A DNA stretch of 64,000 bases from Chloroflexota bacterium (lineage in GTDB: Bacteria > Chloroflexota > Limnocylindria > P2-11E), in contig VBDX01000127.1 of assembly GCA_005881885.1 (NCBI GenBank), positions 1-64,000 of the forward strand, in the 5' to 3' direction. Each line of letters opens with the position of its first letter. Position 1 is the first letter of the stretch. The position numbers and the translations under genes were made by a program. The notes under the pieces were generated by a model. The model was not told where the DNA came from. It did no database searches and was given only the letters and a program-made list of their open reading frames with translations. This document shows, piece after piece, positions 7,166 through 56,104 of this stretch.

Positions 7166-7179
7166 GGCGCTGGCGCGCC

Positions 7180-33023: not shown

Positions 33024-34673
33024 CTAGGTGCTTGGTAGGTCGATCCCGCTCCGATGCGCGAAGTCGATCGCGTCCGGATACCCCGCGTCGGCATGGCGCA
33101 TCACGCCGGTGCCCGGGTCTGTGGTGAGCACTCGGCGCAGCTTCTCGCGGCTGAGCGGCGTCCCGTCGGCGACGGCGACCATGCCCGCGTGTATGGAGTT
33201 GCCGATGCCGACGCCGCCGCCATGATGCACCGAGACCCACGTGGCGCCGGCCGACGTGTTCACGAGCGCGTTGAGGATCGGCCAGTCCGCGATCGCGTCG
33301 CTTCCATCACGCATCGCCTCGGTCTCGCGGAACGGTGACGCGACGGAGCCCGAATCGAGGTGGTCGCGTCCGATCACGATCGGCGCGCCGAGCTCGCCGC
33401 GCGCGACGAGATCGTCGATGCGCTCACCGAACTCGGCGCGCTCGCCGTAGCCCAGCCAGCACACACGTGCCGGAAGACCTTGGAATGGGACACGCTCGCC
33501 GGCGAGCCGGATCCAGCGTCCGAGAGTGTGATCCTCGGGGAAGAGCTCGAGTACAAGCTGGTCCGTGCGCCGGATGTCCGCTGCGTTCCCGGACAGCGCC
33601 ACCCAGCGAAAAGGACCGCGTCCTTCCGAGAAGAGCGGTCGGATGTACTCCGCGACGAAGCCTGGATAGCTGAAGGCCTTCGCGAAGCCCGCCGCTCGCG
33701 CCTCTCCGCGCAGATTGTTCCCGTAATCGAACGCGACCGCGCCTCGCTCCGCAAGCGCGACGATCGCTTCGCAGTGCCGCGCGATGGACGCCCGCGACCG
33801 GCGGACGTACTCGTCGGGGTCCTCTCGCCGCACCCGCCCCGGATCCGCCACGCCGGCCGGGACGTATCCGTTGAGCGGGTCGTGCGCGCTCGTCTGATCG
33901 GTGACCACGTCGACCGCGACGCCGCGGCGAACGAGCTCGGGTAGCACGTCTGCCGCGTTCGCGACGACGCCGATGGACCGCGCAGTCGCGTCTTTGCGGT
34001 GACGCACGATGCGCGTGAGCGCGTCATCGAGCGAAGGCGCGATCTCGTCCAGGAAGCCCTGAGCCTTCCGCCGCTCGGCGTGCGCCGGATCTACCTCGAC
34101 GATGAGCGCGATGCCTTCGTTCATCGTGATGGCAAGCGGCTGCGCGCCGCCCATCCCGCCAAGGCCGGCGCTCACCACCAGGCGACCGGCGAGCGACCCA
34201 GAAAAATGCCGCTTCGCGACCGCGGCGAAGGTCTCGTACGTGCCCTGCAATATCCCCTGGGTCCCGATGTAGATCCAGGAGCCCGCGGTCATCTGGCCGT
34301 ACATCGTGAGGCCAAGAGCCTCGAGCCTTCGGAACTCGTCCCAGGTCGCCCAGCGCGGGACGATCAGTGCGTTGGCGATGAGCACGCGCGGTGCCCACTC
34401 GTGCGTGCGAAAGACCCCGACCGGCTTTCCCGACTGCACGAGGAGGGTCTCGTCGTTTTTCAGCCGCTTCAGGGTCGCCAAGATGCGATCGAACGCGGCC
34501 CACGAGCGCGCGGCACGACCGGTTCCGCCGTAGACGATGAGCTCTTCGGGGCGCTCCGCTACCTCAGGATCGAGGTTGTTCTGGATCATCCGGAACGCCG
34601 CTTCCTGGGGCCAGCCGCGGCACTGCAGTGTGCTGCCGCGAGGTGCCTGGACGACCCGAGTAGCGAGGCTCAC
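33024..34673 (-). CDS. hutU: Urocanate hydratase
   Basis: [84 protein letters not shown]. Confidence 0.95.
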
Positions 34674-36976: not shown

Positions 36977-37933
36977 TCAGTCCGCCTTGCTGTGCAGGCG
37001 CGGGTCGAGCGCATCGCGGACCGCGTCCCCGAGCAGGTTCGCGGCTAGCACGACGGAGGTGACGGTGATCCCGGGGAAGACCGCGAGCCACCAGGCGATG
37101 CGCAGATAGCGCCGCGCCTCGGAGAGCATGAGGCCCCACTCCGCCGCCGGCGGCTGCGCGCCAAGGCCGAGGAACGACAGCGCCGCGATCGAAAAGATCG
37201 CCGTCGCCAGGCCGAAGGTGGCGATCGTGATCACCGGCCCGAGCACCTGCGGAACGATGTGCGCGAAGGCGATCCGCACCTCGCTCGCGCCGATGCTCCG
37301 GGCCGCTTCGACGAAGAGCTCGTGACGCGTCGCGAGCACGGACCCACGGACGATCCGCGCGAAGCGCGGGATGCCGCCGATGCCGACGGCGATCGCAACT
37401 TTCTCGAGGCCGGACCCGAGGATGGTCACGATGATGAGCGCGAGCAGGATTCCCGGGAACGCGAGCTCGACATCGACCAGGCGCATGAGCACGCTATCCA
37501 TCCATCCACCGCGCATGCCGGACATGAGTCCGATGAGCCCGCCCGAGATCGCGGCGATCGTCACGGCGGCGAATCCGACGGACAGCGACGCGCGACCGCC
37601 GTCGATGAGCCGGAGCAGCACGTCGCGTCCGAACTGATCGGTCCCGAGCGGATGTCCTGTCGAGCCAGGCGCGAGCAGCGAATCCTTGAGGCTCTGCCGG
37701 AACGGGTCGATCGAGATCGCCATCGGCAGGAGCAGGACGGTGGCGATGAGCGCGCCGAGGTAGACAAGCATCACCATCGCGGTGCGGTCGGACCGAAGGC
37801 GCCGCCACGCGCGCATGTAAGGGCCGGGGCTCGCAGGGAACAGCGGCATGGGTCGCTGCGATCCCTGCGCCGCGGCCACGATCGGGGCGCCGCCGAGGTT
37901 AGGCGGCGCGGATCCTGGGGTTGATGAAGCCAT
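36977..37933 (-). CDS. ABC transporter permease (DppC-like)
   Basis: GHPLGTDQFGRDVLLRLIDGGRASLSVGFAAV..EAARSIGASEVRIAFAHIVPQ. Confidence 0.92.
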   Translation of the reverse strand: MASSTPGSAPPNLGGAPIVAAAQGSQRPMPLFPASPGPYMRAWRRLRSDRTAMVMLVYLGALIATVLLLPMAISIDPFRQSLKDSLLAPGSTGHPLGTDQFGRDVLLRLIDGGRASLSVGFAAVTIAAISGGLIGLMSGMRGGWMDSVLMRLVDVELAFPGILLALIIVTILGSGLEKVAIAVGIGGIPRFARIVRGSVLATRHELFVEAARSIGASEVRIAFAHIVPQVLGPVITIATFGLATAIFSIAALSFLGLGAQPPAAEWGLMLSEARRYLRIAWWLAVFPGITVTSVVLAANLLGDAVRDALDPRLHSKAD

Positions 37934-38843
37934 ATGAGATGTCGACGAGCAGATTGGCGATCACGTAGCTCGTCGCCGTCAGCAGGATCACGCCCTGGAC
38001 GACCGGATAGTCCTTCGCGAGGATCGAGTCGATCGCGAGCTGCCCGATGCCCTGCCGCGCGAACACCGTCTCGACGATCACGCTCCCCGCAAGCAGGCGC
38101 CCGAGCTGCAGGCCGACGATCGTCACCACGGGGATGAGCGCGTTGCGCATCGCGTGGCCGAGCAGGACGGTGCGCGGCGGCAGGCCTTTCGCGTGAGCCG
38201 TGCGCACGTATTCGCGGCCGAGCACGTCGAGCAGCGACGCGCGCGTGAGCCGTGCGATGAGGCCGATGCCCTCGTAGCCGAGCACGAGCATCGGAAGGAT
38301 GAGGCGGTCGAGGCTCCCTGACCCGGTCGCGGGTACGAGGCCGAGCGTGACCGAGAACACGAGGATGAGGACGATCGCGAGGACGAAGCTCGGGATCGAG
38401 ACGCCGCCGAGCGAGACGAACATCACCAGACGGTCGATCGGCGAGTTCCGTTTGACCGCCGCCACGATCCCGAGGGCGACGCCGAGCAGCACCGAGATCA
38501 CGAGCGCCGACCCGGCGAGCTCGATCGTGCTCGGGAGCCGGTCGCCGATGACTTTGATGACCGGCTGATGCCGAATGAACGATTCCCCGAGATCGAGGTG
38601 CGTCGCATTCCAGAGCCAGCGGATGTACTGGAGCGGCAGCGGATCGCCCAGGCCGAGCTGCTGGCGCAGGCTCGCGACGAGCTGCTCCTGTGCGGCCCGG
38701 TCGCCGACCCCGAAGGATGCCGCGCCGATCATGGCGTCGATGGGGTCCCCGGGGACCAGATGCAGGATCGCGAAGACGAGCAGAGACGCGAGTAGGAGAA
38801 CTGGCACGGATTCGACTAGCCGCTGCGAGACGAACTTCGCCAC
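37899..38843 (-). CDS. ABC transporter permease (DppB-like)
   Basis: MAKFVSQRLVESVPVLLLASLLVFAILHLVPGDPIDAMIG. Confidence 0.92.
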   Translation of the reverse strand: MAKFVSQRLVESVPVLLLASLLVFAILHLVPGDPIDAMIGAASFGVGDRAAQEQLVASLRQQLGLGDPLPLQYIRWLWNATHLDLGESFIRHQPVIKVIGDRLPSTIELAGSALVISVLLGVALGIVAAVKRNSPIDRLVMFVSLGGVSIPSFVLAIVLILVFSVTLGLVPATGSGSLDRLILPMLVLGYEGIGLIARLTRASLLDVLGREYVRTAHAKGLPPRTVLLGHAMRNALIPVVTIVGLQLGRLLAGSVIVETVFARQGIGQLAIDSILAKDYPVVQGVILLTATSYVIANLLVDISYGFINPRIRAA

Positions 38844-38857
38844 CCAAGCCTCCCCTG

Positions 38858-39811
38858 CTAGCCGGAATCGTCCCTCACATCGAAGCCCTTGTCGCGCAGG
38901 AGCGTGACCGTGCTTTCCATCAGCGGCGCCACCTTCTCGAGTGGCGCGTCCATCCGCTTGATCTTGGAAAGCGGGCGGACGGCCCCGTGCACCGCGCCGG
39001 CGTTCACCGGCGTCTCGCCGAACAGGCGCGCGAGCAGGGTCTGGATCTCCGTCGAGAGGAGAAAGTCCACCAAAGCACGGGCCTCCGCGGGATGCTTCGC
39101 GTCCGCGAGCACGGCGACGGTGTGCGCCTCGACGTGCGTCCCCGTTTCATTCCCAGCCTGGTCGAGCCACGCCTCGCCGACGGGGTTCCCTTCCATATAG
39201 AAGACGTGGATGTTCGAGGAGTTCGCGATGGCGACGGCCTTCCGCTCCCGCGCGAGCGCTTCGCGCGTGCGCAGGTTCGAGCCGTAGATCCGCATTCCAT
39301 TCGCGAGCAGCGCGTCGATAAGCCGCGTCGCGTACGCGTCCCCTTTGACGACGCGCAGCGCCGCGAACTGCGCCACTGTCGTCATCTCGACGAGCGCGGC
39401 GCACGCGACTGCGTCCCGGAAGCGTGTATCGGTGAGATCCTCGAGGCGGACGGGCCACGTGGCGCTCTCCGGGAGGACCGCGCGATTGACCATCGCGGCC
39501 CGCGGCCACGCGGTGAAAGACAGCCACGCGAAATCCGGGGCGCGCAGCCACTCGGGGTAGGCCTTCGCCACAGGCGATGCGTACGGTTCGAAGATCCCCG
39601 AACCGCGCGAGAGCTCGACCGCGAGCTGACTGTTGGTCAGGAGGAGATCGGCCTGCGGATCGGCGCGCTCGGCCACGATCCGTTGCTCGACATCGTGGTG
39701 GTAGACCTTCTCCACAGTGGTCTTGATGCCGGTGAGCCGTTCGAAGAGCAGGTAAACCGGAGTGAGGTCAGGACGATTGCGTCCCGAATAGATGCGCAGC
39801 TCGCCGGCCAT
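38858..39811 (-). CDS. Fe(3+)/AfuA-type ABC substrate-binding protein without signal peptide
   Basis: MAGELRIYSGRNRPDLTPVYLLFERLTGIKTTVEKVYHHDVEQRIVAERADPQADLLLTNSQLAVELSRGSGIFEPYASP; N-terminus begins directly with the mature fold. Confidence 0.82.
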   Translation of the reverse strand: MAGELRIYSGRNRPDLTPVYLLFERLTGIKTTVEKVYHHDVEQRIVAERADPQADLLLTNSQLAVELSRGSGIFEPYASPVAKAYPEWLRAPDFAWLSFTAWPRAAMVNRAVLPESATWPVRLEDLTDTRFRDAVACAALVEMTTVAQFAALRVVKGDAYATRLIDALLANGMRIYGSNLRTREALARERKAVAIANSSNIHVFYMEGNPVGEAWLDQAGNETGTHVEAHTVAVLADAKHPAEARALVDFLLSTEIQTLLARLFGETPVNAGAVHGAVRPLSKIKRMDAPLEKVAPLMESTVTLLRDKGFDVRDDSG

Positions 39812-39812
39812 C

Positions 39813-41075
39813 TCAGTCCGCGCCCGATGCCAGGGTTCGCTCGGCCTGCCGGCGCTGCCGACGCTCGACCTCTTCGGGTGGCCGGACGTCGCGGAACGTG
39901 AAGTAGATCGCGATGTCGTAGACGATCTTGAGCGCGCCCGCGATGAAGAACGGCAGGCCGAGCGCGGCCGCGCTGAAGGCCATGCCCGCGAACGTCGGTG
40001 AGATCGCCGTCGCCGTAGTCCGCGCGACGTTCGTGATCCCGGCTGTCGCGGTCCGCTCGTCCGGATCGACGACCGCCATCGTGTACGACTGCCGTGTCGG
40101 GACATCCATCTGCGAGACGCTCATCCGCGCTAGGTACAGGGCGACTGCGAGCCAGGAGACCGGCGCGAGCGGCACCAGGACGAGCAGGATCTGCGAGGGC
40201 AGATGCGTGAAGACCATGGTGTTGAGTAGGCCGATCCGCTCCGCGAGCCAGCCGGCCAAAAGGAGCGAGAGCCCCGAGAGCACGCCGACCCAGAAGAACA
40301 GGACGGCGAGCGTCGCTGGATCGAAACCCCAACGCAGGAAGAACCAGTACGCGACGATCGACTGCACGACGAACCCGCCCGCGAAGGCGTCGAGGCCGAA
40401 GAGGAGCGAAAGCTTGGCGACCGTCCCCGTCGACCGGTGGATCCCGAGGAAGCGCCGCTCGCCCTCGACCTTCGTGAGTTCGACCCGGTCGCTGAGGGTG
40501 AGGAAGATCGCGAGATTGAGAAGCCCGACCACCGCGTAGAAGGCGAAGAGCGGGCGGTACGCGTCGGCGCCGTGCAAACCCTGCGCGGCGAAGAAGCCCA
40601 CCGCTGCGGCGGCGAGCGATCCAAGCGCGCCCGCGAAGTTCGCCGCGGTGTTGTAGATGGAGAACAGCCAGGTCCGTCGCTCGTTCGGCGCGGTCTGCGG
40701 AAGGATGGCCTGCTCGACGGTTTGGAAGATCCCGACCTCCGAGCTCGTCGCGCTGATGGTTCCGGTGAAGGCGCCGAGGACCAGGATCCAGAAATCGCTG
40801 GTGACCGCGAAGAGCAGGCCGCCGACCGCCATGAGCATGGCCATCGTCTGGATCGTCCGCCGCCGTCCGTAGCGATCCGCCACGAGGGACCAGAGGACGG
40901 TCATGAGCGCGGAGCCCGCGATCGCGGCCGTGAAGATCAGACCGATCTGGACCTTCGACATACCGAGCTGATCCAGATATAGCCCGAGGACGACCGCGAG
41001 GTAGCCGTACGCGAAGGTGCGCAGGACGCGCGTGGCAAGGAGCTTCTTGCCGTCAGCCGAAAGCCAGTCGAGCAC
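39813..41075 (-). CDS. MFS transporter
   Basis: 12-TM pattern; YGYLAVVLGLYLDQLGMSKVQIGLIFTAAIAGSALMTVLWSLVADRYGRRRTI. Confidence 0.9.
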   Translation of the reverse strand: MLDWLSADGKKLLATRVLRTFAYGYLAVVLGLYLDQLGMSKVQIGLIFTAAIAGSALMTVLWSLVADRYGRRRTIQTMAMLMAVGGLLFAVTSDFWILVLGAFTGTISATSSEVGIFQTVEQAILPQTAPNERRTWLFSIYNTAANFAGALGSLAAAAVGFFAAQGLHGADAYRPLFAFYAVVGLLNLAIFLTLSDRVELTKVEGERRFLGIHRSTGTVAKLSLLFGLDAFAGGFVVQSIVAYWFFLRWGFDPATLAVLFFWVGVLSGLSLLLAGWLAERIGLLNTMVFTHLPSQILLVLVPLAPVSWLAVALYLARMSVSQMDVPTRQSYTMAVVDPDERTATAGITNVARTTATAISPTFAGMAFSAAALGLPFFIAGALKIVYDIAIYFTFRDVRPPEEVERRQRRQAERTLASGAD

Positions 41076-41082
41076 GAAGCCC

Positions 41083-42234
41083 CTAGCGGATAGCCGCAAG
41101 TGGCCGCGCCGAGACCGTCGCCTCCTGGTAGAGGTTCCACGGAAGCAGGCGGTACTCGTTCTCGCATGGGTTGCCGGACGCGATCCAGTACTCGCCGGTC
41201 GTGAGGTCGACGATGCTCGACGCGATCGTCTGGTTCAGGTCCGTCCCTCCCGACGCCTCGTCGCCATGCTTGCAGACCGCGTTCGGATATCCGAAGTGGT
41301 CCCGGAGCGCCGCGCCGATCGCGCCTCGGATGGTCGCGGGATCGCCCGGGTCCTTCGCCGCGCGCAGGCCTTCCGTGAGGCGAGGAAGCCGCCAGAGCGA
41401 GTTCACCGAGAACGGCCGGTACGTCGCTGCGATCTGCTCGGGGACGAAGGCGACGAAGTGGTTCGTGTGCACGAGCAGGCCATTGGTGGGGTACATCCAG
41501 CCGTGTCTATCGGGCGTCGTCTCGAGATCGATCGCGAATCCGTCGCGGTGCGTCACGACCAGGTTCGTGCAGAGCGACTGGCGCGAGTCGAAGACGGCGC
41601 GGAGCGCCGATTGCATCTCCGTCGCCTCCAGCACTTTGCGGCGGATGATCGGCTGCGGAACGCCGATGCCCTTGCCCCATCTGGTGCCGAGCCCGTTCGC
41701 GTTGAGGGCGATCCCGGCCGAGTTCGCGCCGTGCCGTCCGACCTGTCCGGCTTCGGTCTGCATGATGATCGTTGGCCGGCCTGGTTGGATGATGCGCAGG
41801 AGGATCACCGTACCCGCCGTCTCGCAGCGCCAGTCCCAGTTCTGTCCGCAGTAGACGTGGCCGTCGCCCGATGCCTGGGGCAGGATCGCGTACGACGAGC
41901 AGCCCTCCTCAGCCTCATCGGCAAAGGGGTTGTGGGTCGAGAGCTCACCGCGCGCGTTCAGCGCGAGCACCTCCTCGAAGTCGACGCCCGCGCCCTCGGC
42001 GATGCCGCGAATCTCGTCGCCGATCCCAGGGAGGTAGCTCTCAATGGGCGGCACCCAACGCGGCGCGTTGCGGCGGATCTCCGACCACTCGAGTCCGGTC
42101 GTGCGCTTGAACGACTCGCGGTAGTAGCCGATCGAGTCGCGGATCTGGCTCCGTGCGGCCTCGCCGTGCTGGCGCCCGAGCTCGGGCCGGTCGCCGCTGA
42201 TCTCGATCGTCGGTAACGCCGCTGCAGCTTCCAT
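41083..42234 (-). CDS. C45 family autoproteolytic acyltransferase/hydrolase (IAT-like)
   Basis: EEGCSSYAILPQASGDGHVYCGQNWDWRCETAGTVILLRI; LGRQHGEAARSQI; nucleophile Cys in GCSSYA. Confidence 0.88.
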   Translation of the reverse strand: MEAAAALPTIEISGDRPELGRQHGEAARSQIRDSIGYYRESFKRTTGLEWSEIRRNAPRWVPPIESYLPGIGDEIRGIAEGAGVDFEEVLALNARGELSTHNPFADEAEEGCSSYAILPQASGDGHVYCGQNWDWRCETAGTVILLRIIQPGRPTIIMQTEAGQVGRHGANSAGIALNANGLGTRWGKGIGVPQPIIRRKVLEATEMQSALRAVFDSRQSLCTNLVVTHRDGFAIDLETTPDRHGWMYPTNGLLVHTNHFVAFVPEQIAATYRPFSVNSLWRLPRLTEGLRAAKDPGDPATIRGAIGAALRDHFGYPNAVCKHGDEASGGTDLNQTIASSIVDLTTGEYWIASGNPCENEYRLLPWNLYQEATVSARPLAAIR

Positions 42235-42284
42235 CGCATCGCCCCCGGCTTGAATCTCGCCGCAGCATACACTACAGTCCGCCC

Positions 42285-43181
42285 GTGGCAACGGCAGCGA
42301 ACGCTACAAGGCCTGCGGCGACCCTCGACGAGCGCATCGCCGCGACGCGTCCCACGCTCAGCCCGGCGGAAGAGCGCGTCGCGTCGTTCTTCGCCCAGCA
42401 TCGCGAGGAGGCCGTCTTTCTCTCCGCCGCGGAGATCGCCCGACAGCTCGAGACGAGCGACGCGACGGTGATCCGGGCGGTGCAGTCGCTCGGGTACGGC
42501 GGACTTCCGGCGCTCAAGGCCGAGCTTCAGGACGCGCTTCGCTCGCGCGCGACACCCACGCTCCGCCTTGGGCGCAGCATCGAGGAGCTGGGCGACGATC
42601 CTTCGGTCGTCCTCGAGCACGTTCTCGCGACGGAGCTACAGCTGCTGCACGACGCCCGAGAGACACTGCGCACCACCGACTTTGCGCGGGCGCTGAAGCT
42701 CCTCGCCGGCGCGCAGCGCGTCGTGATCCAGGGCCTCGGGCCGAACGCTCCACTGGGCGAGTACTTCGCCGCGCGACTGCGCCGGATGCGGCGGCCTGCC
42801 GTCGCGGTGGGTGCGCGCGGCCAGGCGCTGGCGGACGCGTTGATCGACATGCGGCGGGGCGACGTCGTCATCGTCATCGCGTACGACCGCTCGAGCCCCG
42901 AGGCCGAGCTCACGCTCGAACGCGCGCGCGAGCTGAAGCTGCCGTCCATCCTCATCACCGACACGCTGGGCCTTGCGCTCGACGGCCAGTTCACCGTCGC
43001 GCTTTCCGCGCGCCGCGCCGGCGGGGGTATGTTCCATCTGTCGGCGATGACGATCGTCGTGCTGGATGCTCTGCTGTTTGGTCTCGCGGGCCAGGATCGC
43101 GCGGCGGCGCTCGCCGCTGCCGAGGAGCTTGGGGAACTGCGCGCACGCATCGACAAGCGCGCGTTGGGGGGAACGGAGTGA
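42285..43181 (+). CDS. RpiR/MurR family transcriptional regulator (HTH_6 + SIS)
   Basis: RPTLSPAEERVASFFAQHREEAVFLSAAEIARQLETSDATVIRAVQSLGYGGLPALKAEL; SIS domain. Confidence 0.92.
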   Translation: MATAANATRPAATLDERIAATRPTLSPAEERVASFFAQHREEAVFLSAAEIARQLETSDATVIRAVQSLGYGGLPALKAELQDALRSRATPTLRLGRSIEELGDDPSVVLEHVLATELQLLHDARETLRTTDFARALKLLAGAQRVVIQGLGPNAPLGEYFAARLRRMRRPAVAVGARGQALADALIDMRRGDVVIVIAYDRSSPEAELTLERARELKLPSILITDTLGLALDGQFTVALSARRAGGGMFHLSAMTIVVLDALLFGLAGQDRAAALAAAEELGELRARIDKRALGGTE

Positions 43182-44539
43182 GCACACTCACGCAAACACG
43201 GATGGGGCTTTCGAGCGCGGACGTTCGCCAGCTGCGGGAGCAGTACGTACCTAGGGGTCTGCACGTCGGGACTCCGGTGGTGGTCGCGCATGCGTCCGGC
43301 GCGGAGGTCTTCGATCCCGAGGGGAAGCGCTATCTCGACTTCGTCTCCGGCATCGGCGCCCTGAACCTCGGCCATCAGCACCCCGAGATCATCGCCGCCG
43401 TGCAGGAGCAGCTCGAGCGTTACGCGCACGTGTCGGCCCAGGTCGTGACGTACGAGCCGTACGTGCGCCTCGCCCAGGAGCTCGACCGAATTTATCCCCG
43501 TACGAGCGGCTCGACGGTCGCGACGAAGAGCGTCTTCGCGAACAGCGGCGCCGAGGCGGTCGAGAACGCGATCAAGATCGCTCGGGTCGCCACCGGGCGC
43601 GAGTGGATCGTGGCCTTCCAGAACTCGTTCCACGGCCGCACCTACACCGCGATGACCGCGACGGGCAAGACGAAGAACTCTCGGATGGCGTTCATGCGCT
43701 CGACCACGCCGAACATTGCCCATCTGCCGTACCCCTATCCCTACCGGCCGATCGCGAACGTTGCTGACGAGGAGCTCGCGGAGCTGTACGTGCGCCTCTT
43801 CGAGCAGGCGCTTGACACCAACCTCGCGCCGGAGCACGTGGCGGCCGTCATCATCGAGCCGGTCCAGGGCGAGGGCGGCTTCGTCGTGCCGCCGGCGCGC
43901 TTCTTGAAGCGCGTCGCGGCGATCTGCCGCCGTCACGACATCCTCTTCATCGCCGACGAGATCCAGACTGGCATGGCGCGGACCGGACGCATGTTCGCCA
44001 TCGAGCACGCCGGCGTCACGCCCGATCTTCTCGTGACCTCCAAGTCGCTGGGTGCCGGATTCCCGATCGGCGCGGTCACCGGGCGCGCGGAGCTCTTCGA
44101 GGCGCTTGGGCCGGGCACGCTCGGGAGCACGTTCGGAGGCCACCCCATCGCCTGCGCGGCGGCGCTCAAGACCATCGAGATCATCGAGCGAGACGGACTG
44201 ATCGCGCGCGCCGGCGAGATCGGGCGCGCGATCCGAGCGCGATTCGACACCATGGCGGAGCGGTTCGCTTCGATCGGAGAGGCACGCGGCATCGGCGCGA
44301 TGCAAGCGATCGAGCTCGTGCGCGATCGCAAGACGAAGGCGCCGGCCCCGGACGTGGTCGAGGCGTCCATCCGCGCGGCCTGCGAGCGTGGCCTGTTGCT
44401 ACTGCGGGCGGGCCTCTACTCGAACGTCATCCGTACGCTCGTCCCGCTCACGATCACCGACGCGCAACTCAACGAAGGGCTCGACGTCCTCGAAGCAGCG
44501 CTGGCCGCCAACACCAAGGACGCGGCAGGCTCACGCTGA
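43178..44539 (+). CDS. gabT: Class III aminotransferase, 4-aminobutyrate transaminase-like
   Basis: SGIGALNLGHQHPEIIAAVQ..FANSGAEAVENAIKIAR..FHGRTYTAMTATG..IADEIQTGMARTGRMFAIEHAGVTPDLLVTSKSLGAGFPIGAVTGR; GTGA overlap with RpiR gene. Confidence 0.9.
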   Translation: MSTLTQTRMGLSSADVRQLREQYVPRGLHVGTPVVVAHASGAEVFDPEGKRYLDFVSGIGALNLGHQHPEIIAAVQEQLERYAHVSAQVVTYEPYVRLAQELDRIYPRTSGSTVATKSVFANSGAEAVENAIKIARVATGREWIVAFQNSFHGRTYTAMTATGKTKNSRMAFMRSTTPNIAHLPYPYPYRPIANVADEELAELYVRLFEQALDTNLAPEHVAAVIIEPVQGEGGFVVPPARFLKRVAAICRRHDILFIADEIQTGMARTGRMFAIEHAGVTPDLLVTSKSLGAGFPIGAVTGRAELFEALGPGTLGSTFGGHPIACAAALKTIEIIERDGLIARAGEIGRAIRARFDTMAERFASIGEARGIGAMQAIELVRDRKTKAPAPDVVEASIRAACERGLLLLRAGLYSNVIRTLVPLTITDAQLNEGLDVLEAALAANTKDAAGSR

Positions 44540-44547
44540 AGGCGAAC

Positions 44548-46179
44548 ATGTACCGGCGCCAATTCCTGAGGCGGTCCGCGCTTGCGGCGGCGAGCCTCGC
44601 GGTCTTCGCCTGCGCGCCCGGCGCGACCGGGCCCGCGGCGTCGGCGGCGCTCAAACCGGTCAAGGGCGGCACGCTCACCTGGGGGCTGTGGGACAAGATC
44701 GACGTCATCGACCCCGCGCTCACCACAGGGGCGGCCGCCGGCGAGATCGCGCAGAACATCCTGGACACGCTCATCACGATCGACAGCGACCAGAAGCTCT
44801 ACCCGGCGCTCGCCTCCAAGTGGACCATCACCGACTCCTCGAAGACCTTCACGTTCACGCTCCGCGACGGCGTGAAGTTCCACGACGGGAGCACCCTCAC
44901 GGCCGCCGCGGTGAAGGGATCCTTCGATCGGATCCTCGATCCAAAGACGAAGGCCGGTGCCGTCGTCTCGCTCGTGGGTCCGATCGACAAGATCACAACG
45001 CCGGACGACAAGACGGTGGTCTTCAGCTTCAAGCAGCCGTATCCGGCGTTCATGCTGCAGATCTGGCGCTACTTTTTCGGGGTCCTCTCGCCGAAATACC
45101 TCGCGACACTGAAGCCCGGCGACGTAGCGGCGGAGCCCGTCGGTTCGGGTCCGTTCATGTTCGCGGGGCGGTCGTCCGACGGCGTCGTCACGATCAAAGC
45201 CTTCGCCGACTACAACTGGGGTAATGAGCTCTTCAAGAACCGCGGCGCGGCTTACCTCGACCAGCTGAAGTTCCGCGCGATCACCGAGCCGTCGACCCGC
45301 GTGGCCACTCTCGAGAGCGGCGAGAATCTGTTCATCGACGAGATCCCCGAGGCAGACTACGCGCGCCTGAAGGAAGACAAACGTTTCCGCTTCGTCCAGT
45401 CACCCCGCGCGAGCCACACGCTCGGCTTCAGCATGAACGTCACCAAGGCGCCGACCGACGACCACGCGGTCCGTGAGGCCGTGAACTGGGCCGTCGACCG
45501 TAAGTCGATCGTCGACAAGATCTTCTTCGGCGTCCATCACGTGTCCATGGGCCCGCTCTCCGAGGGCGTCTGGGCGCGCGACGAGAGCATCGAGAAGTCT
45601 TTCGGCTATGACCCGGCGAAGGCGAAGAAGATCCTCGACGACGCGGGCTGGAAGGCCGGCGCGTCAGGCCCGATCCGCGAGAAGAGCGGACAGAAGCTCG
45701 AGATCGCTCTCGCCACTTTCCGCAGCCCCTGGACCGAGATCGCCCAGGCGATGCAATCGCAGCTTCGCGACATTGGCATCGACCTCAAGGTGCAGGTGAT
45801 GGAGCGCGGCCCGTATCTCGATTTCGTGCGCGCATACAAGCACAACATGGCCGCGACTTCGTCGACAGCGATCGATCCGGACGGGATCCTCCGCGTCTGC
45901 TATCACTCGGCGAACCGGGTCTCCGGGAGCAACTTCTCAAACACGAACGACCCGCAGCTCGACGCACTGCTTGTCAAGGGGCAGTCGCAGGACCTGAGCA
46001 CGCCCGAGCGCAAGCAGACCTACGTCGACGCGCAGAAGCGCGTCATGGAGATCCTGCCGTTCGTCGGCGTCATGAGCCAGGTGCGGGTCGAAGCCATGTC
46101 CACAAAGGTGCACGACTTCAAGCCGGGACCCGATGGACTCACCGGGACCGCCATGAACGACGTCTGGCTGGAGAGCTAG
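44548..46179 (+). CDS. ABC transporter substrate-binding lipoprotein, family 5, Tat-like signal
   Basis: MYRRQFLRRSALAAASLAVFACAPG; LTWGLWDKIDVIDPALTTGAAAGEIAQNILDTLI. Confidence 0.92.
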   Translation: MYRRQFLRRSALAAASLAVFACAPGATGPAASAALKPVKGGTLTWGLWDKIDVIDPALTTGAAAGEIAQNILDTLITIDSDQKLYPALASKWTITDSSKTFTFTLRDGVKFHDGSTLTAAAVKGSFDRILDPKTKAGAVVSLVGPIDKITTPDDKTVVFSFKQPYPAFMLQIWRYFFGVLSPKYLATLKPGDVAAEPVGSGPFMFAGRSSDGVVTIKAFADYNWGNELFKNRGAAYLDQLKFRAITEPSTRVATLESGENLFIDEIPEADYARLKEDKRFRFVQSPRASHTLGFSMNVTKAPTDDHAVREAVNWAVDRKSIVDKIFFGVHHVSMGPLSEGVWARDESIEKSFGYDPAKAKKILDDAGWKAGASGPIREKSGQKLEIALATFRSPWTEIAQAMQSQLRDIGIDLKVQVMERGPYLDFVRAYKHNMAATSSTAIDPDGILRVCYHSANRVSGSNFSNTNDPQLDALLVKGQSQDLSTPERKQTYVDAQKRVMEILPFVGVMSQVRVEAMSTKVHDFKPGPDGLTGTAMNDVWLES

Positions 46180-46947
46180 ATGGACCTGGTGACCCTTGCC
46201 ATCGCCGCCACACCGTCGTTCATCGCCAGCGCCGTCGAGTTCGTCGAGGCGACAACGATCGTCCTCGCCGTCGGGATCACGCGCGGCTGGCGCGCGCCGC
46301 TCGCCGGCAGCGCGCTGGCGGCGCTCACGCTCGGCGTGATCGTCGGCACGCTCGGGGTTGCGCTCGTCACGGTCGTACCCGAGCACCTGCTGCTCGGTCT
46401 CGTCGGCACGCTGCTGCTGCTCTTCGGCCTGCGCTGGCTGCGCAAGGCAGTCCTCCGCTTCGCAGGGATCGTCGCGCTGCACGACGAGGAAGAGATCTAT
46501 CGCAAAGAGGTCGCCGAGCTTCGCTCGCAAGGCCGGAGGAAGACCGAGTGGGATTGGGTCGGCATGATCGTGGCATACAAGGCGGTGCTCCTTGAGGGCA
46601 TCGAGGTCGCCTTCATCGTCATCGCGTTCGGCGCGAAGGGCCTCGGCGCGATGAACGCGGCGATCGTCGGCGCCATCGCCGCCGGCATCATCGTCATCGC
46701 GCTCGCGGCCGCGCTTCGGCATCCGCTCACGGCCGTTCCGGAGAACTGGATGAAGTTCGGTGTCGGCGCGATGCTCTCGAGCTTCGGCGTCTTCTGGTTC
46801 GGCGAGGGTGTCGGTGCGGAGTGGCCAGGCGACGCCGCGTCGATCCCGATCATCCTCGGCGCGTTCCTCGTCGCGAGCTGGATTGCGGTGCGGCTCCTGA
46901 ACGGCCTACTCCCACAGGGCGCGCGCGTGGAGGCGCGGAATGTCTAG
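46180..46947 (+). CDS. Predicted membrane protein (COG4280-like), two E-x-x-E-containing TM repeats
   Basis: SAVEFVEATTIVLAVGITRGWRAPL and AVLLEGIEVAFIVIAFGAKGLGAM repeats. Confidence 0.78.
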   Translation: MDLVTLAIAATPSFIASAVEFVEATTIVLAVGITRGWRAPLAGSALAALTLGVIVGTLGVALVTVVPEHLLLGLVGTLLLLFGLRWLRKAVLRFAGIVALHDEEEIYRKEVAELRSQGRRKTEWDWVGMIVAYKAVLLEGIEVAFIVIAFGAKGLGAMNAAIVGAIAAGIIVIALAAALRHPLTAVPENWMKFGVGAMLSSFGVFWFGEGVGAEWPGDAASIPIILGAFLVASWIAVRLLNGLLPQGARVEARNV

Positions 46948-47170
46948 CGTGCTGCGCGCGATCTGGGACAACACGTACGGGCTGCTCGTCGACGACGGCC
47001 AGCTCGCGATCGGGGCGATCGCCGCGCTCGCCATCACCTGGCTCATCGCGGCGTCGAGTTCCGAGGCGCTCCGCGGGAACGCCGGCTGGGTGCTGCTCGT
47101 CCTGGTCCTCGCGCTGGTGGTCGCAAACCTTTACCGCGCCGGGCACAGCGCGCGCCGACGCACCGGCTAG
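46940..47170 (+). CDS. Small two-TM membrane protein coupled to COG4280-like gene
   Basis: MSSVLRAIWDNTYGLLVDDGQLAIGAIAALAITWLIAASSSEALRGNAGWVLLVLVLALVVANLYRAGHSARRRTG; 8-bp overlap. Confidence 0.78.
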   Translation: MSSVLRAIWDNTYGLLVDDGQLAIGAIAALAITWLIAASSSEALRGNAGWVLLVLVLALVVANLYRAGHSARRRTG

Positions 47171-47577
47171 CGAGCTACGGCACTTCCGCGGGGTTGAGCC
47201 TTCGCTCCGCGGTCCGTTCGCAGAAGCGCGAAGACGAACATCGCGCTCAGGATCAGGTGGAGCAGAGACGCGCTCGCGGCTTGTGCCGGCAAGTGGCCGG
47301 CAAGGACCTCACTCGCGTTCACCAGCAACGAGAGGATCTGGACGACAAGGTTTCCGCCGAGGAGACTGCGCAACACCTCGCCGGTCGCGCCGCGCAACAG
47401 CCAATCGATGACCCCGAGTCCCGTGACCGTCGCGCCGGCGCCGCGTGCGATCGCGATCCCTCCATCCGGCAGCGTGAGGCCGGAGATAGCGAGCATCGAC
47501 GCCGGGAAGAGCAGCAGAGGAAGACCGAACGCGAACGCTTGCACGGCGCCGATGGTGAGCGCCAGGCGCGGGCTCAA
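47167..47577 (-). CDS. Four-TM membrane protein of unknown function
   Basis: Hydrophobic 136-aa ORF; shares stop palindrome with 46940..47170. Confidence 0.65.
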   Translation of the reverse strand: MSPRLALTIGAVQAFAFGLPLLLFPASMLAISGLTLPDGGIAIARGAGATVTGLGVIDWLLRGATGEVLRSLLGGNLVVQILSLLVNASEVLAGHLPAQAASASLLHLILSAMFVFALLRTDRGAKAQPRGSAVAR

Positions 47578-47588
47578 GGCACGCGATT

Positions 47589-49256
47589 ATGAGCGAGCCG
47601 GCCGATCTGATCCTTCACGGAGGAAGGGTCTGGACCGTCGATCCAGAGCGGCCCGAGGCGCGAGCGGTCGCGGTCCGCGGCGACCGTTTCGTCGCGGTCG
47701 GGCCCGAGCAGGAGGTGCTCGGACTCCGGGGACCGGCAACGCAGGTCATCGAGCTGGGCGATCGCCTCGTGCTTCCGGGATTCATCGACGCGCACACCCA
47801 CTTCGGGAACGCCGCCGCGTGGCTCTTCCGCGTGAGCCTCTACGAGGTCGGCGATGCGCCTCTGGCCATCGACAAGGTGGCGGCCGCGGCGCAGCTGGTG
47901 CCGGAAGGCCTCTGGATCACCGGTGGCGACCTCGGCGCCGCCGACGCGTGGGTGGCCGATCGCGCCGGACGTCCTCGGCCCGCGCCGCCGGCCGTGGACC
48001 GATCCGCGCTCGACCGCGCCGCTCCTCGGCATCCGGTCTTGCTGCGTCGGGTGGACGGCGCATACGTCGCGAACTCGCTCGCGCTGGCGCGCGCCCGCCT
48101 CGGTCGACGCGCTCCCGATCCACGGGGCGGGGGCGTCGATCGCGACCCGGCCACAGGCGAGCCGACGGGGCTTCTCTTCGGTCGCGCGGGCGAGCGGATG
48201 ATCGAGCTCATGCCGCCGGCGAGCCTCGAGTACCTGCTCGTTGGCGCTCGCGCCGCTCTGGAGGACCTGCGGCGGGTGGGGATCACGTCGATCCACGATG
48301 TGGCGCGCCTGCCGGAAATTTCGCGGACCCGCGTCTTCCACACGGACGTCGAGCGCAGCGCCACCGACCTCGACATCTTCCGCGAGCTCCAACGCCGCGA
48401 CCAGCTGACGATCCGGGTCTACGCGTTCCTCACGCTCGCGGTCTGGCGCGACATAGTGAAAAGCGGGATCAGGCCGCGTTCCGACGACGGCTTGATCCGC
48501 TTTGGGGGACTCAAGGCCTTCGTCGATGGCTTCCTCATGGAGATGCCGTACGCGGATGACCCGGACTATGCGGGCGACTTCACTTTCCGCTTCGTCGACG
48601 AGGAGACGATGGCCGCGGACATCGCCGGGGCCGACCGCGCCGGCTTCGACCCCGTCATCCACACGATCGGCGATCGCGCACATCGGCTGCTGCTCGACTG
48701 GTACGAGGCGGCCGTCCGCGCCAATCCATCGCGCGACCGGCGCTTCCGCGTCATCCACGCCTGGTACCCGAGCGCGCGCGAGGTCCAACGGATCGGGACC
48801 CTCGGGCTGATCGCGGACGTCACACCGCAGCACCTGGCGAACGACGTTGCGTTGGTCGAGCGCAGGCTCGGGCCGGAACGCGCAAGGACCGCGCACGCGT
48901 GGCGATCGCTTCTCGAGGCTGGTGCCCGCCTCGATCTCGTCTCGGACTGGCCGGGGTCTTTCAACGAGCAGCGGGCGACCCCGCTCGCGCCGCTCGAGAA
49001 CATCGCGCTCGCGGTCGGCCGCGAGTGGCACCCGGAGCAGGCGTTGACCGTCGCGGAGGCCATCGCCGCGTACACGTCCACCCCGGCCTACGCCTCGCAC
49101 GAGGAACATCGCAAGGGCAGCATCACCGAGGGCAAGCTCGCCGATCTCGTGGTGCTTTCGCGCGACATCCTCTCCCTCAATGCGGAAGAGATCCGGGCGA
49201 CGGAGGTCGACCTGACCATCCTGGGCGGGCGAGTCATCTATCGACGGACCGACTGA
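47589..49256 (+). CDS. YtcJ-like amidohydrolase
   Basis: ADLILHGGRVWTVDPERPEARAVAVRGDRFVAVG..LPGFIDAHTHFG..IHTIGDRAHRLLLDWYEAA..LDLVSDWPGSFNEQR. Confidence 0.88.
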   Translation: MSEPADLILHGGRVWTVDPERPEARAVAVRGDRFVAVGPEQEVLGLRGPATQVIELGDRLVLPGFIDAHTHFGNAAAWLFRVSLYEVGDAPLAIDKVAAAAQLVPEGLWITGGDLGAADAWVADRAGRPRPAPPAVDRSALDRAAPRHPVLLRRVDGAYVANSLALARARLGRRAPDPRGGGVDRDPATGEPTGLLFGRAGERMIELMPPASLEYLLVGARAALEDLRRVGITSIHDVARLPEISRTRVFHTDVERSATDLDIFRELQRRDQLTIRVYAFLTLAVWRDIVKSGIRPRSDDGLIRFGGLKAFVDGFLMEMPYADDPDYAGDFTFRFVDEETMAADIAGADRAGFDPVIHTIGDRAHRLLLDWYEAAVRANPSRDRRFRVIHAWYPSAREVQRIGTLGLIADVTPQHLANDVALVERRLGPERARTAHAWRSLLEAGARLDLVSDWPGSFNEQRATPLAPLENIALAVGREWHPEQALTVAEAIAAYTSTPAYASHEEHRKGSITEGKLADLVVLSRDILSLNAEEIRATEVDLTILGGRVIYRRTD

Positions 49257-52137: not shown

Positions 52138-54126
52138 CTAACTCGCCGTCGCGTTTCGTACGCGGTCGCGCGTGAGCGGAAGCTGCCGCAGGCGAGCGCC
52201 GCACGCCGCGAAGACCGCGTTCGCGATCGCCGCCGCGGTCGGCACGGCGCCGGGCTCGCCGACGCCCGTCGGTGGTGCGCTTGCGTCGCCCTCGACCAGC
52301 ACCTCGATCGATGCGGGCGCATCGTTGAAGGTCGCGATGGGGTAGGCGTCCCAGCCGGTAGTTGTGACGCGGCCGTCGCGGTGGCGTAGCTCCTCGAGAA
52401 GCGTCCACGAGGCGGATTGCTGGATGCCGCCCTCGATCTGGTTGCGGACGCCGTCGGGATTGATGGTCTGGCCTGGATCCACGACGCACCACACGTTGAG
52501 CAAGCGGACCTGCCCCGAGGCTGTGACCTCGACCTCCGCGACCTGAGCGACGTAGGTGTCGTGATAAACGGTGCACGCGATCCCGCGACCGTGGCGCGGC
52601 GGCAGCGTCCCCCCGCTCAAGCCACTGCGCTCGGCGACGCGCTCGACGACCCGCCGGAAGCGCGGATCCTCAATATGCCGCAGACGGAACGCGAGCGGCT
52701 CCTGGCCCGATGCGGCCGCGAGCTCGTCCATGAACGATTCGATCGCGAAGACGTTCTCCGCGGCCGCGAGCGATCGGAAGTTCGCCGTCCGCAGGCGCGT
52801 CGGTTCCAGATGCAGGGTCACCTTCGCCGCGAACGGTCCGTAGGGCGGGATCGCGTTGCGCCCGGAGGTGACCGACAGGACCTGCGGGTCCAGGCCGGCC
52901 GCCGTGTGCACGTTGGTGTGCTCGTCGTAGTTCCAGGCAAGGATGTGGCCCTCCGGATCAAGTCCAGCGGTCACCTCGAGCAGCGCCTCGGGCCGGGACG
53001 GCGACCAGGCGAATTCCTCCTCGCGCGTCCACTGCAAGAGGACGGGCCGCCCGGCGCCCTTGGAGAGGATCGCGGCTTCGATCGCCGCATCGCCAAGGGT
53101 GTTGCGCCCGTACGAGCCGCTCGTGATCTGCGGCAGCACGCGGACCTTGTCTTCGGGCAGCCCCAGGGTCTTCGCGACCTGCTCCCGAACGCCGAACGGC
53201 CGGTGCGTGCCTACATACATCGTCGCGCCATCCGGTCGCACATCCGCGACCGCCGCGCTCGGACCGATCGGTGCATTCGCGATCGGAGGCAGGACGTACG
53301 TTTGCGCGAGTCGAAGAGATGCGCGCGCGAGTGCCCGGTCGACGCCGGCGTCGGACCGCATCGGCACGTCGGCGCTCGGCCCCTCGACCGGGACAAGATG
53401 CCACTCCACCTCGACCGCCCCGGCGGCGGCGCGGGCCTGCTCTTCGCGCTCCGCCACGACGCCGACGACATCGCCTTCGCGGACGACGGCGACGACGCCC
53501 GGCATCTTTCGCGCGGCCTCGTCGTTCAGCGAGCGCAGCTTCGCGCCGCGACCGGGCGGGCGGACCATCGCTCCCCGCAGCATGCCCGGAAGACGGACGT
53601 CCGCGACGAACGTCGCGCGGCCGGTGACGATGTCGCGGGCTTCGAGCCGGGGCATCGGCTGACCCGCGTAGCGCCGGCGCGAGTCGGGCATAAGCGGCAG
53701 CTCGTCGGGTATGGGCCCGGTGAGCGGCGTACCGTCCAGAAGCTCGACGTACGGGATCCGCCGGTCGCCACGGTCGACGACCGCGCCGCGGTCGGTGTCG
53801 AGCCGGTCGACGGGTACGCGAAGCTTCGCGCTGGCGCGCTCGAGCAGCTGCCGGCGCGCGAACGCCGCGGCATTGCGTAGGCGCGGCGTCTCCTGTGCGA
53901 CGGAGTGGCTTCCGAAAGTCCCGAAATCGAAGGGCACCTGCGCCGTGTCGCCGAGCACGACGTGCACGCGTTCGATAGGCAGGTCGAGCTCGTCCGCGAC
54001 GAGCTGGGCGAACGCCGTCCTGATCCCCTGTCCGAAGTCGATCTTGCCCGAGAGCGCCGTCACGGTGCCGTCGCGCTCGAGACGGATGCGCTGCTCGAGC
54101 CGCTCAGGATCCTTCCGATCCCACAT
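52138..54126 (-). CDS. Molybdopterin hydroxylase large subunit, IorB/NicB type
   Basis: N-terminal KIDFGQGIRTAFAQLVADELDLPIERVHVVLGDTA; later GRATFVADVRLPGMLRGAMVRPP; C-terminal GVGEPGAVPTAAAIANAV. Confidence 0.85.
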   Translation of the reverse strand: MWDRKDPERLEQRIRLERDGTVTALSGKIDFGQGIRTAFAQLVADELDLPIERVHVVLGDTAQVPFDFGTFGSHSVAQETPRLRNAAAFARRQLLERASAKLRVPVDRLDTDRGAVVDRGDRRIPYVELLDGTPLTGPIPDELPLMPDSRRRYAGQPMPRLEARDIVTGRATFVADVRLPGMLRGAMVRPPGRGAKLRSLNDEAARKMPGVVAVVREGDVVGVVAEREEQARAAAGAVEVEWHLVPVEGPSADVPMRSDAGVDRALARASLRLAQTYVLPPIANAPIGPSAAVADVRPDGATMYVGTHRPFGVREQVAKTLGLPEDKVRVLPQITSGSYGRNTLGDAAIEAAILSKGAGRPVLLQWTREEEFAWSPSRPEALLEVTAGLDPEGHILAWNYDEHTNVHTAAGLDPQVLSVTSGRNAIPPYGPFAAKVTLHLEPTRLRTANFRSLAAAENVFAIESFMDELAAASGQEPLAFRLRHIEDPRFRRVVERVAERSGLSGGTLPPRHGRGIACTVYHDTYVAQVAEVEVTASGQVRLLNVWCVVDPGQTINPDGVRNQIEGGIQQSASWTLLEELRHRDGRVTTTGWDAYPIATFNDAPASIEVLVEGDASAPPTGVGEPGAVPTAAAIANAVFAACGARLRQLPLTRDRVRNATAS

Positions 54127-54578
54127 CAGGACGCCGCTCTCTTCACGGCGCGAATGGCCCGTCCGTACACGCCGCATCTGCAGAGGTTGCCCGCGAGGGC
54201 GTCGCGGATGGCGACCTCGTCGGGGGCGCGATCGCGCGCGAGGAGGGCGGCGGCGGAGATGAGCATCCCGCTCGTGCAGTAGCCGCATTGCATCGCGTCC
54301 TCTTCGACGAAGGCGCGTTGCACCGGATGCAGCTCTTCGCCGCGCGCGAGACCTTCGACCGTGGTGATCTCCATGCGCGCGGCCTGATCCGCCGTGAGCA
54401 GGCAGGACGCCACGGCCCTCTCATCGGCGATCACGAAGCATGCCCCGCATTGACCACGGCCGCAGCCGAACCGCGTGCCGGTGAGCGCGAGGTCGTCGCG
54501 CAGCACGGAGAGGAGCGTCGCGTTCGGCGGGATATCGACGTCTCGCCGCGCGCCGTTGACCGTGAGGGTGAGCTTCAC
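54126..54578 (-). CDS. [2Fe-2S] small subunit (IorA/NicA/CoxS type)
   Basis: [71 protein letters not shown]. Confidence 0.92.
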
Positions 54579-56104
54579 AAGAGCTCGGGAAGCCGCATTC
54601 GGACGGCGGCGATCAGGACCTCGCGGGCGATGGCGTCCGCCATCGCGCCGATCTCCGCGGAGAGTGAGCGGTCCTCGTCCACTTGGGCCGAACGTTCCCG
54701 GACGACGCGCCGCGCTTCCTCGACGCCCGGGCCGGTCCTGGCCTCGAGCAAGTCGAGCCCCTGTGCCGCGCAGAGGGCCTCGATCGCGAGGACCTCCCGC
54801 GTGTTGCGCACGACGTCGACGAGCTTGTGAGCGGCGTGCACGCCCATGCTCACGTGGTCCTCCATCCCTGCCGACGTGGGGAGCGATTCGACCGACGCGG
54901 GGAAGGAACGCAGGCGGTTCTCGGTCACCAGCGCGGCGGCGGTGTACTGCGCGACCATAAACCCTGAGTTCGTCCCGGGATCGCGTGTGAGGAACGGTGG
55001 CAGGCCGCTCGTGTGGCCGTTGGTCATCCGATCGACGCGCGCTTCGCTGATGTCCGCGAGCTCTGCGACCGCGATCGTCGCGAGGTCGAGCGCGATGGCG
55101 ACCGGCTGGCCGTGGAAGTTCCCGCCGCTCACGACGCGGTTGTCCTCGGCGAAGACGATCGGATTGTCGGTGACCGCATTGATCTCGATCTCGAGGACAC
55201 GCCGCGTGTAGGCGATGGCATCCCGCGACGCGCCATGGACCTGCGGCATGCAGCGGATCGAATAAGGATCCTGCACACGCAGGTCGCCGACGCGATGCGA
55301 CGCGACGTTTGGGCTTGCGGCCATGAGGGACCGAAGGTTCGCCGCGACGGCCTGCTGGCCGGGATGCGGGCGCGTCGCGTGCAGCTCGGCGTCCCAGGCG
55401 CGATCGGTCGATCGAAGGGCCTCAGCCGACATCGCGCCGACGATGTCCGCGGTGGTCGCGAGCACCTCGGCGTCGTGCAGCGCGAGGCAGCCGATCGCGG
55501 TCATCACCTGCGTTCCATTGATCAGCGACACGCCCTCTTTCGGCGCGAGCTCGATCGGCTTGAGCCCGGCCGCCTTGAGCGACTCCGCTCCCGGGCGGCG
55601 CTTCCCTTCGGCCACCGTTTCGCCTTCGCCGATCAGCACCAGCGCGGCGTGCGCGAGCGGGGCGAGGTCGCCGGACGCTCCGACGCTCCCGTGTCGCGGG
55701 ATGACCGGATGGACCCGCCGATTCAGCATGTCGCAAAGCAAGTTGACCACGTCTGTTCGCACGCCGGAATGTCCGGCCGCGAGCGTATTCGCGCGGAGCA
55801 GCAGGACCGCGCGCACCACGTCTTCGGGAAGCGCGGGGCCGACGCCCACCGCGTGGCTTCGCACGAGGTTACGCTGCAAAGCGCGCAGATCCCCGTGCGC
55901 CACGCGCACAGCCGCAAGATCGCCGAAACCGGTGTTCACGCCGTAGACGGGATCGTCACCCTCGGCGATCTGCGCGACCACCTTGGCCGCCTGCTGTACC
56001 TGACGCTCCGCGGCGCGATCGAGGCCTACCGCGACGTCGCGGCGCGCGACCGCGACGACGTCCGCGATCGAGAGATCGTGCCCGGTGAGGCGGAGGGTCG
56101 CTAT
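54575..56104 (-). CDS. hutH: Histidine ammonia-lyase family protein, probable non-canonical start
   Basis: MIO motif GASGDLAPLAH; VYGVNTGFGDLA; LTGHDLSIADV N-terminus; candidate starts ATA 56104 or CTG 56125. Confidence 0.92.
   Translation of the reverse strand: MATLRLTGHDLSIADVVAVARRDVAVGLDRAAERQVQQAAKVVAQIAEGDDPVYGVNTGFGDLAAVRVAHGDLRALQRNLVRSHAVGVGPALPEDVVRAVLLLRANTLAAGHSGVRTDVVNLLCDMLNRRVHPVIPRHGSVGASGDLAPLAHAALVLIGEGETVAEGKRRPGAESLKAAGLKPIELAPKEGVSLINGTQVMTAIGCLALHDAEVLATTADIVGAMSAEALRSTDRAWDAELHATRPHPGQQAVAANLRSLMAASPNVASHRVGDLRVQDPYSIRCMPQVHGASRDAIAYTRRVLEIEINAVTDNPIVFAEDNRVVSGGNFHGQPVAIALDLATIAVAELADISEARVDRMTNGHTSGLPPFLTRDPGTNSGFMVAQYTAAALVTENRLRSFPASVESLPTSAGMEDHVSMGVHAAHKLVDVVRNTREVLAIEALCAAQGLDLLEARTGPGVEEARRVVRERSAQVDEDRSLSAEIGAMADAIAREVLIAAVRMRLPELL

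Follow-up and report, generated by a model that had tools for sequence, protein, structure and literature searches.

A divergent RpiR–C45 gene island of Chloroflexota that may serve the use of amides of omega-amino compounds

Background

Enzymes of the C45 family are common in bacterial genomes, and to our knowledge few of them have a known role. AzsT is one of these, a desuccinylase that takes an N-succinyl group off an amide (PMC10445470). Among RpiR-family proteins, RccR of Pseudomonas binds TGTAGT/ACTACA palindromes, two copies of which lie before aceE (PMC5489143). Our literature searches on COG4280, on C45 gene clusters and on RpiR regulators together with C45 yielded nothing else that is relevant, apart from an aphA1 flank. 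We analyze here a stretch of 64,000 nucleotides ("the window"; contig VBDX01000127.1 of assembly GCA_005881885.1, our contig C172) from a Chloroflexota bacterium whose 3.36-Mb assembly is 92% complete and fragmented. It holds an island in which genes for a C45 protein and an RpiR regulator diverge, each leading an arm that also contains transport genes. An initial annotation described ten genes here and proposed that they import, deacylate and transaminate an N-acyl omega-amino compound; on balance we too favour a single RpiR-repressed unit for import, amide cleavage and transamination of an amide of an omega-amino compound.

Results and Discussion

Conservation of the divergent block

The C45 gene (41083–42234, minus strand) and the RpiR gene (42285–43181, plus strand) are separated by a 50-bp gap (42235–42284), and the RpiR gene overlaps the gene for a class III omega-aminotransferase that resembles gamma-aminobutyrate (GABA) transaminase (43178–44539, plus strand) by 4 bp (GTGA). 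Among records that carry names, the genome is closely related to metagenome-assembled genomes of soil Chloroflexota. Both arms of the block are syntenic in eight other soil Chloroflexota genomes (G001, G002, G003, G007, G010, G022, G024 and G026), with some rearrangement of gene order and with the blocks of G003 and G026 split between contigs. Of the family's 28 genomes, exactly the same ten have genes for the C45 protein (at least 68% identity) and RpiR (at least 59%); the probability that two sets of ten coincide by chance is 7.6e-8 on the assumption of independent genomes, which does not hold. The transaminase is found in the same ten and in G020, with a 49% match in G021. The COG4280 membrane protein gene and its small partner (below) are distributed differently, being present without C45 in G004, G008, G012, G013, G016, G018 and G020, and COG4280 is absent from G022, whose C45 block does without it. 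It therefore appears that C45, RpiR and the transaminase form a core, and that COG4280 and its partner are a cassette.

The island has a mosaic structure. The C45 proteins are of two types, about 70% identical to each other, and the adjoining pair of AfuA-like and MFS genes also exists in two types, which differ in the gene that comes first. Each C45 type is found with each type of pair: type I C45 with the MFS gene first (the window) or the AfuA-like gene first (G001, G002, G010 and G026), and type II C45 with the MFS gene first (G003 and G007) or the AfuA-like gene first (G024). This indicates recombination inside the island (window 38858–42234 compared with loci L063, L064, L065 and L070). 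The RpiR proteins of the window, G003 and G024 are 90–94% identical to each other. Such mobility of modules, with variable island order and a separable COG4280, is what one might expect if two unrelated operons merely had an intergenic region in common. The co-distribution of C45, RpiR and transaminase and the predicted operator pair between the arms argue against this, and we consider it very improbable indeed. Synteny, phyletic presence and the shared predicted RpiR-type operator pair all bear out the initial description of a real divergent block whose two arms are one unit.

The C45 enzyme

The C45 protein is a member of its family by the curated cut-off (NF040521, 229.4 bits against a cut-off of 85; PF03417, 62.9 against 23.2) and is 27–28% identical to isopenicillin N acyltransferase (IAT). 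Its structure model is confident (pLDDT 86.4) and matches IAT (2x1c) with TM-scores of 0.82/0.88, the next best fold matches being acid ceramidase and NAAA. All 48 sequences compared have C112, D134, N258 and R282, and the putative nucleophile Cys112 is preceded by Gly111, a likely Gly-Cys cleavage site. In the C45 tree the Chloroflexota proteins of this family form a clade (support 100/97) beside the actinobacterial C45 proteins, and the two together form a clade with support of 100/99. That IAT is the nearest solved structure and that an MFS gene adjoins C45 would also suit an acyltransferase, or an acylase that detoxifies lactam or antibiotic-type amides, with the MFS protein as exporter and no part in nutrition. 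Peptide-type importers dominate the C45 loci, however, and semialdehyde dehydrogenases and omega-transaminases recur in them, which points to catabolism and makes such a role improbable in our judgement.

A predicted operator pair

The RpiR protein has HTH_6 (44.6 bits) and SIS (48.8 bits) domains, both above cut-off. When the RpiR–C45 gaps of the relatives are aligned, two conserved GTAG-N6-CTNC boxes stand out, and these are seen in Microtetraspora too. The predicted operators of the window are GTAGCGTTCGCTGC (operator 1, 42294–42307, minus strand), at the start of the RpiR gene, and GTAGTGTATGCTGC (operator 2, 42262–42275, minus strand), 32 bp from it; these two are the only sites in the 3.36-Mb genome with the exact pattern TGTAGYGTNNNCTGC. 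Only one promoter-like site was found in the gap region, TTGCCA-16-TATGCT of the C45 arm (42264–42291, minus strand; 9/12 consensus positions, 0.0 expected in shuffles), and its -10 element overlaps operator 2. In the RpiR-linked clade (Chloroflexota and Actinomycetota; 36 C45 loci), the generalised motif GTAR-N6-YTAC, one mismatch being allowed, reaches a density of 6.9 sites per kb upstream of C45, about 50-fold above the 0.14 sites per kb seen elsewhere, and it was not found upstream of C45 in six sampled GntR-linked loci. Since this motif was partly derived from the same loci, a stricter motif was run on 25 loci outside its definition; 12 exact sites were present in 8 of these loci, against 0.19 expected. 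The GTAR-N6-YTAC pair is probably the operator of RpiR.

Transaminase and C45 neighbours in other lineages

The transaminase (Aminotran_3, 406 bits) matches Escherichia coli GabT with 366 bits, and its alignment to 1sf2 shows that the residues aligned to I50, R141, E211, K268 and R398, which we take to be active-site residues of GabT in that numbering, are kept. Genes for omega-amine metabolism recur independently beside C45 in other phyla. Most sampled actinobacteria have C45 followed by a family 5 solute-binding protein, DppB, DppC and ATPases, usually with a divergent RpiR gene; in Amycolatopsis an aminobutyraldehyde dehydrogenase gene overlaps C45 by 4 bp, in Nocardia GabT and succinate-semialdehyde dehydrogenase (SSADH) genes stand beside it, and in Micromonospora the neighbour is of the ornithine aminotransferase-like type. 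The alphaproteobacterial GntR–C45 clusters of Rhizobium, Neorhizobium and Chelatococcus have an AptA-type transaminase, accompanied in Rhizobium by SSADH. Fourteen actinobacterial loci were scanned together with the genomes they belong to; in four of them a class III transaminase gene lies no more than about 10 kb from C45, against an expectation of 3% per locus (p about 7e-4). These neighbourhoods support amide cleavage combined with transamination; omega-amino chemistry is thereby supported in kind, and an N-acyl omega-amino substrate as first suggested is plausible.

Transport genes

Three parts of an ATP-binding cassette (ABC) importer are encoded in the island. The family 5 solute-binding lipoprotein (44548–46179, plus strand, 8 bp after the transaminase gene; SBP_bac_5, 289 bits) has the N-terminal sequence RRQFLRR and a lipobox-like LAVFAC, and its nearest solved structures are HbpA, AgaA, GsiB/YliB and NikA. 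The permeases are of the DppB/OppB type (37899–38843, minus strand; BPD_transp_1, 130.5 bits, and BPD_transp_1_N, 46 bits) and the DppC/OppC type (36977–37933, minus strand, possibly starting at 37849; BPD_transp_1, 102.7 bits, and OppC_N, 30.9 bits; syntenic in relatives). Elsewhere in the window (5549–9064, plus strand) there is a second SBP_bac_5–DppB–DppC set, also with no adjoining ATPase gene.

Between the DppB and C45 genes lie those of an MFS transporter (39813–41075, minus strand; MFS_1, 127.6 bits) and of the AfuA-like protein (38858–39811, minus strand; SBP_bac_6, 48.7 bits), which has the AfuA/FutA fold with FutA1 (2pt1) as its nearest solved structure. A signal peptide is absent from the latter in six orthologues, whose N-termini begin at the mature position, and the Tyr-Tyr iron ligands of FutA are missing, the aligned residues being Ser-Ser/Asn. 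We have therefore dropped the idea of a ferric-binding protein, and its original designation as a solute-binding protein is likewise not borne out.

Points that weigh against an omega-amino amide route

Several observations count against our preferred interpretation. The co-distribution probability given above leaves phylogeny out of account. The C45 enzyme could make amides rather than cleave them, and the effectors on record for RpiR proteins include phosphosugars, not amides. The scores of the transaminase are under the cut-offs for GABA transaminase (TIGR00700, 477.7 against 506.65; NF005376, 493.5 against 676). Most Streptomyces RpiR–C45 loci have no transaminase nearby, which means that transamination is not obligatory, and the partner ABC type varies among C45 loci (Opp, Fec and polar amino acid types), so no single substrate is forced. 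Finally, the island contains no DppD/DppF-type ATPase gene; oligo_HPY ATPases are encoded only on other contigs, with three matches in the whole genome against 16 DppB-type permeases, in a fragmented assembly and by a search that ATPases lacking oligo_HPY would escape. The ATPases are presumably shared; the importer has its binding protein and DppBC permeases in the island, but no ATPase of its own there.

COG4280 and its small membrane partner

The COG4280 gene (46180–46947, plus strand) follows the SBP_bac_5 gene with no gap. Its product matches OFeT_1 (PF16955, 47.8 bits, cut-off 26.9) over profile positions 89–181 of 207; this was the only family reported at E <= 0.001, and the Pfam family TMEM165/GDT1, whose name NCBI gives to the homologues, was not matched. 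Its motifs E20xxE23 and E139xxE142 are invariant in seven orthologues, and its structure model (mean pLDDT 53.5) is too weak for a fold search. The small partner (46940–47170, plus strand) overlaps it by 8 bp, has two hydrophobic segments that suggest a two-helix protein, and has no Pfam hit. It follows COG4280 in Chloroflexota, in actinobacteria and on alphaproteobacterial plasmids, where the pair is found near genes for ChrB, PAP2 and cation transporters. The pair was first listed as unexplained partners of the system; it lies in the plus-strand arm, but is better described as a separable cassette that elsewhere keeps company with metal genes.

This company raises the question of metal-chelate scavenging, in which C45 would open an amide of a siderophore-like chelate, the COG4280 pair would handle the metal, and the transaminase and an amidohydrolase (below) would consume the organic part. 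Ferrioxamines contain N-succinyl amides, and COG4280 is an OFeT_1 protein with ExxE motifs. In Microtetraspora the C45 operon runs on into Peripla_BP_2, two FecCD genes, an ATPase gene, COG4280 and the small partner (and VIT1 too in locus L018), and Micromonospora yasonensis has the collinear run predicted RpiR operator–COG4280–small partner–Amidohydro_3–C45–Peripla_BP_2–FecCD, so that C45, a FecBCD-type transporter and the COG4280 pair are joined in both; the Fec binding proteins are closest to the ferric dicitrate type, with scores slightly under the cut-off. Against this stand the separability of COG4280, which occurs without C45 in several genomes of the family and is missing from the G022 block, the peptide-type ABC systems of most RpiR–C45 loci, the AfuA-like protein with no ferric ligands, and a block in which no gene for a ferric reductase or for making siderophores was recognised. 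In Streptosporangiaceae, moreover, the run COG4280–small partner–VIT1 is widespread without C45, which weakens the Fec–COG4280 adjacency of Microtetraspora, a member of the same family, as proof of a functional link. We regard chelate scavenging as unlikely for the island. We also give a low probability to the broader idea of a cross-phylum RpiR–C45 regulon with the COG4280 pair as a working part, in which a metal chelate would be captured, its chelator amide cleaved by C45 in the cytoplasm, the metal released and the omega-amino fragments catabolised.

Two further observations concern these families. A protein of a different C45 subfamily is encoded after COG4280–small partner–VIT1 in one Streptosporangiaceae genome (locus L148, 3468–4535, plus strand). 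The window itself encodes a VIT1-family protein (60144–60917, plus strand; 186 bits), and it is this family whose genes come after the COG4280 pair in Streptosporangiaceae.

Remaining genes of the block and its flanks

All ten genes of the initial description have open reading frames at their positions, with the strands, gaps and overlaps first reported, and Pfam and NCBIfam searches agree with the assigned families. That inventory overlooked an eleventh gene of the block, for an amidohydrolase of the Amidohydro_3 family (PF07969, 264.6 bits; 47589–49256, plus strand), which adjoins the small membrane protein gene in relatives and is a block member in all eight syntenic genomes. Between these two genes of the window is an antisense reading frame for 136 hydrophobic amino acids (47167–47577, minus strand), which has no Pfam match and was not seen at the corresponding position in relatives.

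The island is flanked by genes for urocanate hydratase (33024–34673, minus strand) and an aromatic amino acid lyase of the histidine type (54575–56167, minus strand), and in G002 HutU is just downstream of DppC with a 21-bp gap. Tan, a relative of the C45 enzymes, cleaves beta-alanyl amides, and one can imagine a system for carnosine or homocarnosine in which the transaminase would receive the beta-alanine or GABA released by C45, and the products of the flanking hut genes the histidine. Yet hut genes adjoin C45 in none of the actinobacterial and proteobacterial loci examined, nor in G007 and G022, and they sit at the same place in G020 and G004, both of which lack C45; this weakens the case that the flanking hut genes belong to the system, and we find the use of histidine dipeptides quite improbable. 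The hutI gene is elsewhere in the genome, and since a full HutI is encoded on contig C61, the Amidohydro_3 protein was dropped as a HutI replacement. The window also carries two sets of genes for molybdenum hydroxylases of the xanthine/CO dehydrogenase type (13793–17522, plus strand, and 52138–54578, minus strand).

Proposed working of the island

An RpiR-controlled omega-amino amide route might work as follows. With no inducer, RpiR would occupy the two 14-bp palindromes, covering the start of rpiR together with the C45 arm's -10 element and so keeping both arms down, until an inducer released it through the SIS domain. The family 5 lipoprotein and DppBC, with ATPases encoded elsewhere, would then bring in a small conjugate in which an omega-amino compound is held by an amide bond. 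The C45 enzyme, self-activated by a cut before Cys112, would hydrolyse this bond in the cytoplasm and so free an omega-amino group for the class III transaminase to remove. A second amide or a formamide may be the target of the Amidohydro_3 enzyme, the MFS protein may move a related substrate or product, and the signal-less AfuA-like protein could be a cytoplasmic ligand binder. COG4280 and its partner would be a cation-handling cassette that joined the same transcription unit. Of this picture, the layout of the genes, their conservation and co-distribution, the conserved operator motif, the catalytic residues and, from the model, the C45 fold are observed, and the binding and repression by RpiR, the import, the class of substrate and the sequence of steps are inferred.

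The predicted operator and gene neighbourhood, conserved over Chloroflexota and Actinomycetota, mark out a regulon that can be tested and that has a predicted footprint. They also place the unstudied COG4280 pair in a regulated setting and narrow the probable chemistry of this C45 system to amides of omega-amino compounds. Cultured actinobacteria (Streptomyces, Microtetraspora and Micromonospora) carry a system that is otherwise met here only in uncultured soil Chloroflexota.

Comparison with known systems

With IAT, AzsT and insect Tan the island's C45 protein shares the fold (as modelled), the Gly-Cys processing site and the active-site Asp and Asn; N-acyl amide chemistry is probably shared as well, but the island's enzyme is embedded in what would be an RpiR-controlled import and transamination island. 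The GABA and omega-amino acid modules (GabT–GabD, Puu, AptA) likewise have a class III omega-transaminase with the active-site residues of GABA transaminase; unlike them, the island has no semialdehyde dehydrogenase, its enzyme misses the GABA-transaminase cut-offs, and a putative C45 amidase is encoded upstream. COG4280/OFeT_1 genes elsewhere are also paired with a small membrane protein gene, usually with a start-stop overlap, but stand beside ChrB, VIT1, cation transporters or PAP2, whereas here the pair is inside a transcription unit between a binding protein and an amidohydrolase. The GntR–C45–Opp clusters found in Rhizobium, Chelatococcus, Phyllobacterium and other bacteria, which are annotated and unnamed, resemble the island in a C45 gene divergent from a regulator gene and in a peptide-type ABC system, and some of them have an AptA-type transaminase and SSADH too; they differ in having GntR rather than RpiR, an ABC ATPase in most cases, no COG4280 pair, and C45 proteins about 35% identical to that of the island. 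Regulators of the RccR/HexR type have the same HTH_6 and SIS domains, and the predicted sites of the island resemble theirs in the half-sites TGTAG/CTAC(A) and in their pairing near the promoter, but the spacer in the island is 6 bp rather than 5 bp, the adjoining genes are not those of sugar catabolism, and the exact sites are confined to this one locus in the genome. What is new here is a pair of probable RpiR operators at this locus, with a motif that recurs across Chloroflexota and Actinomycetota.

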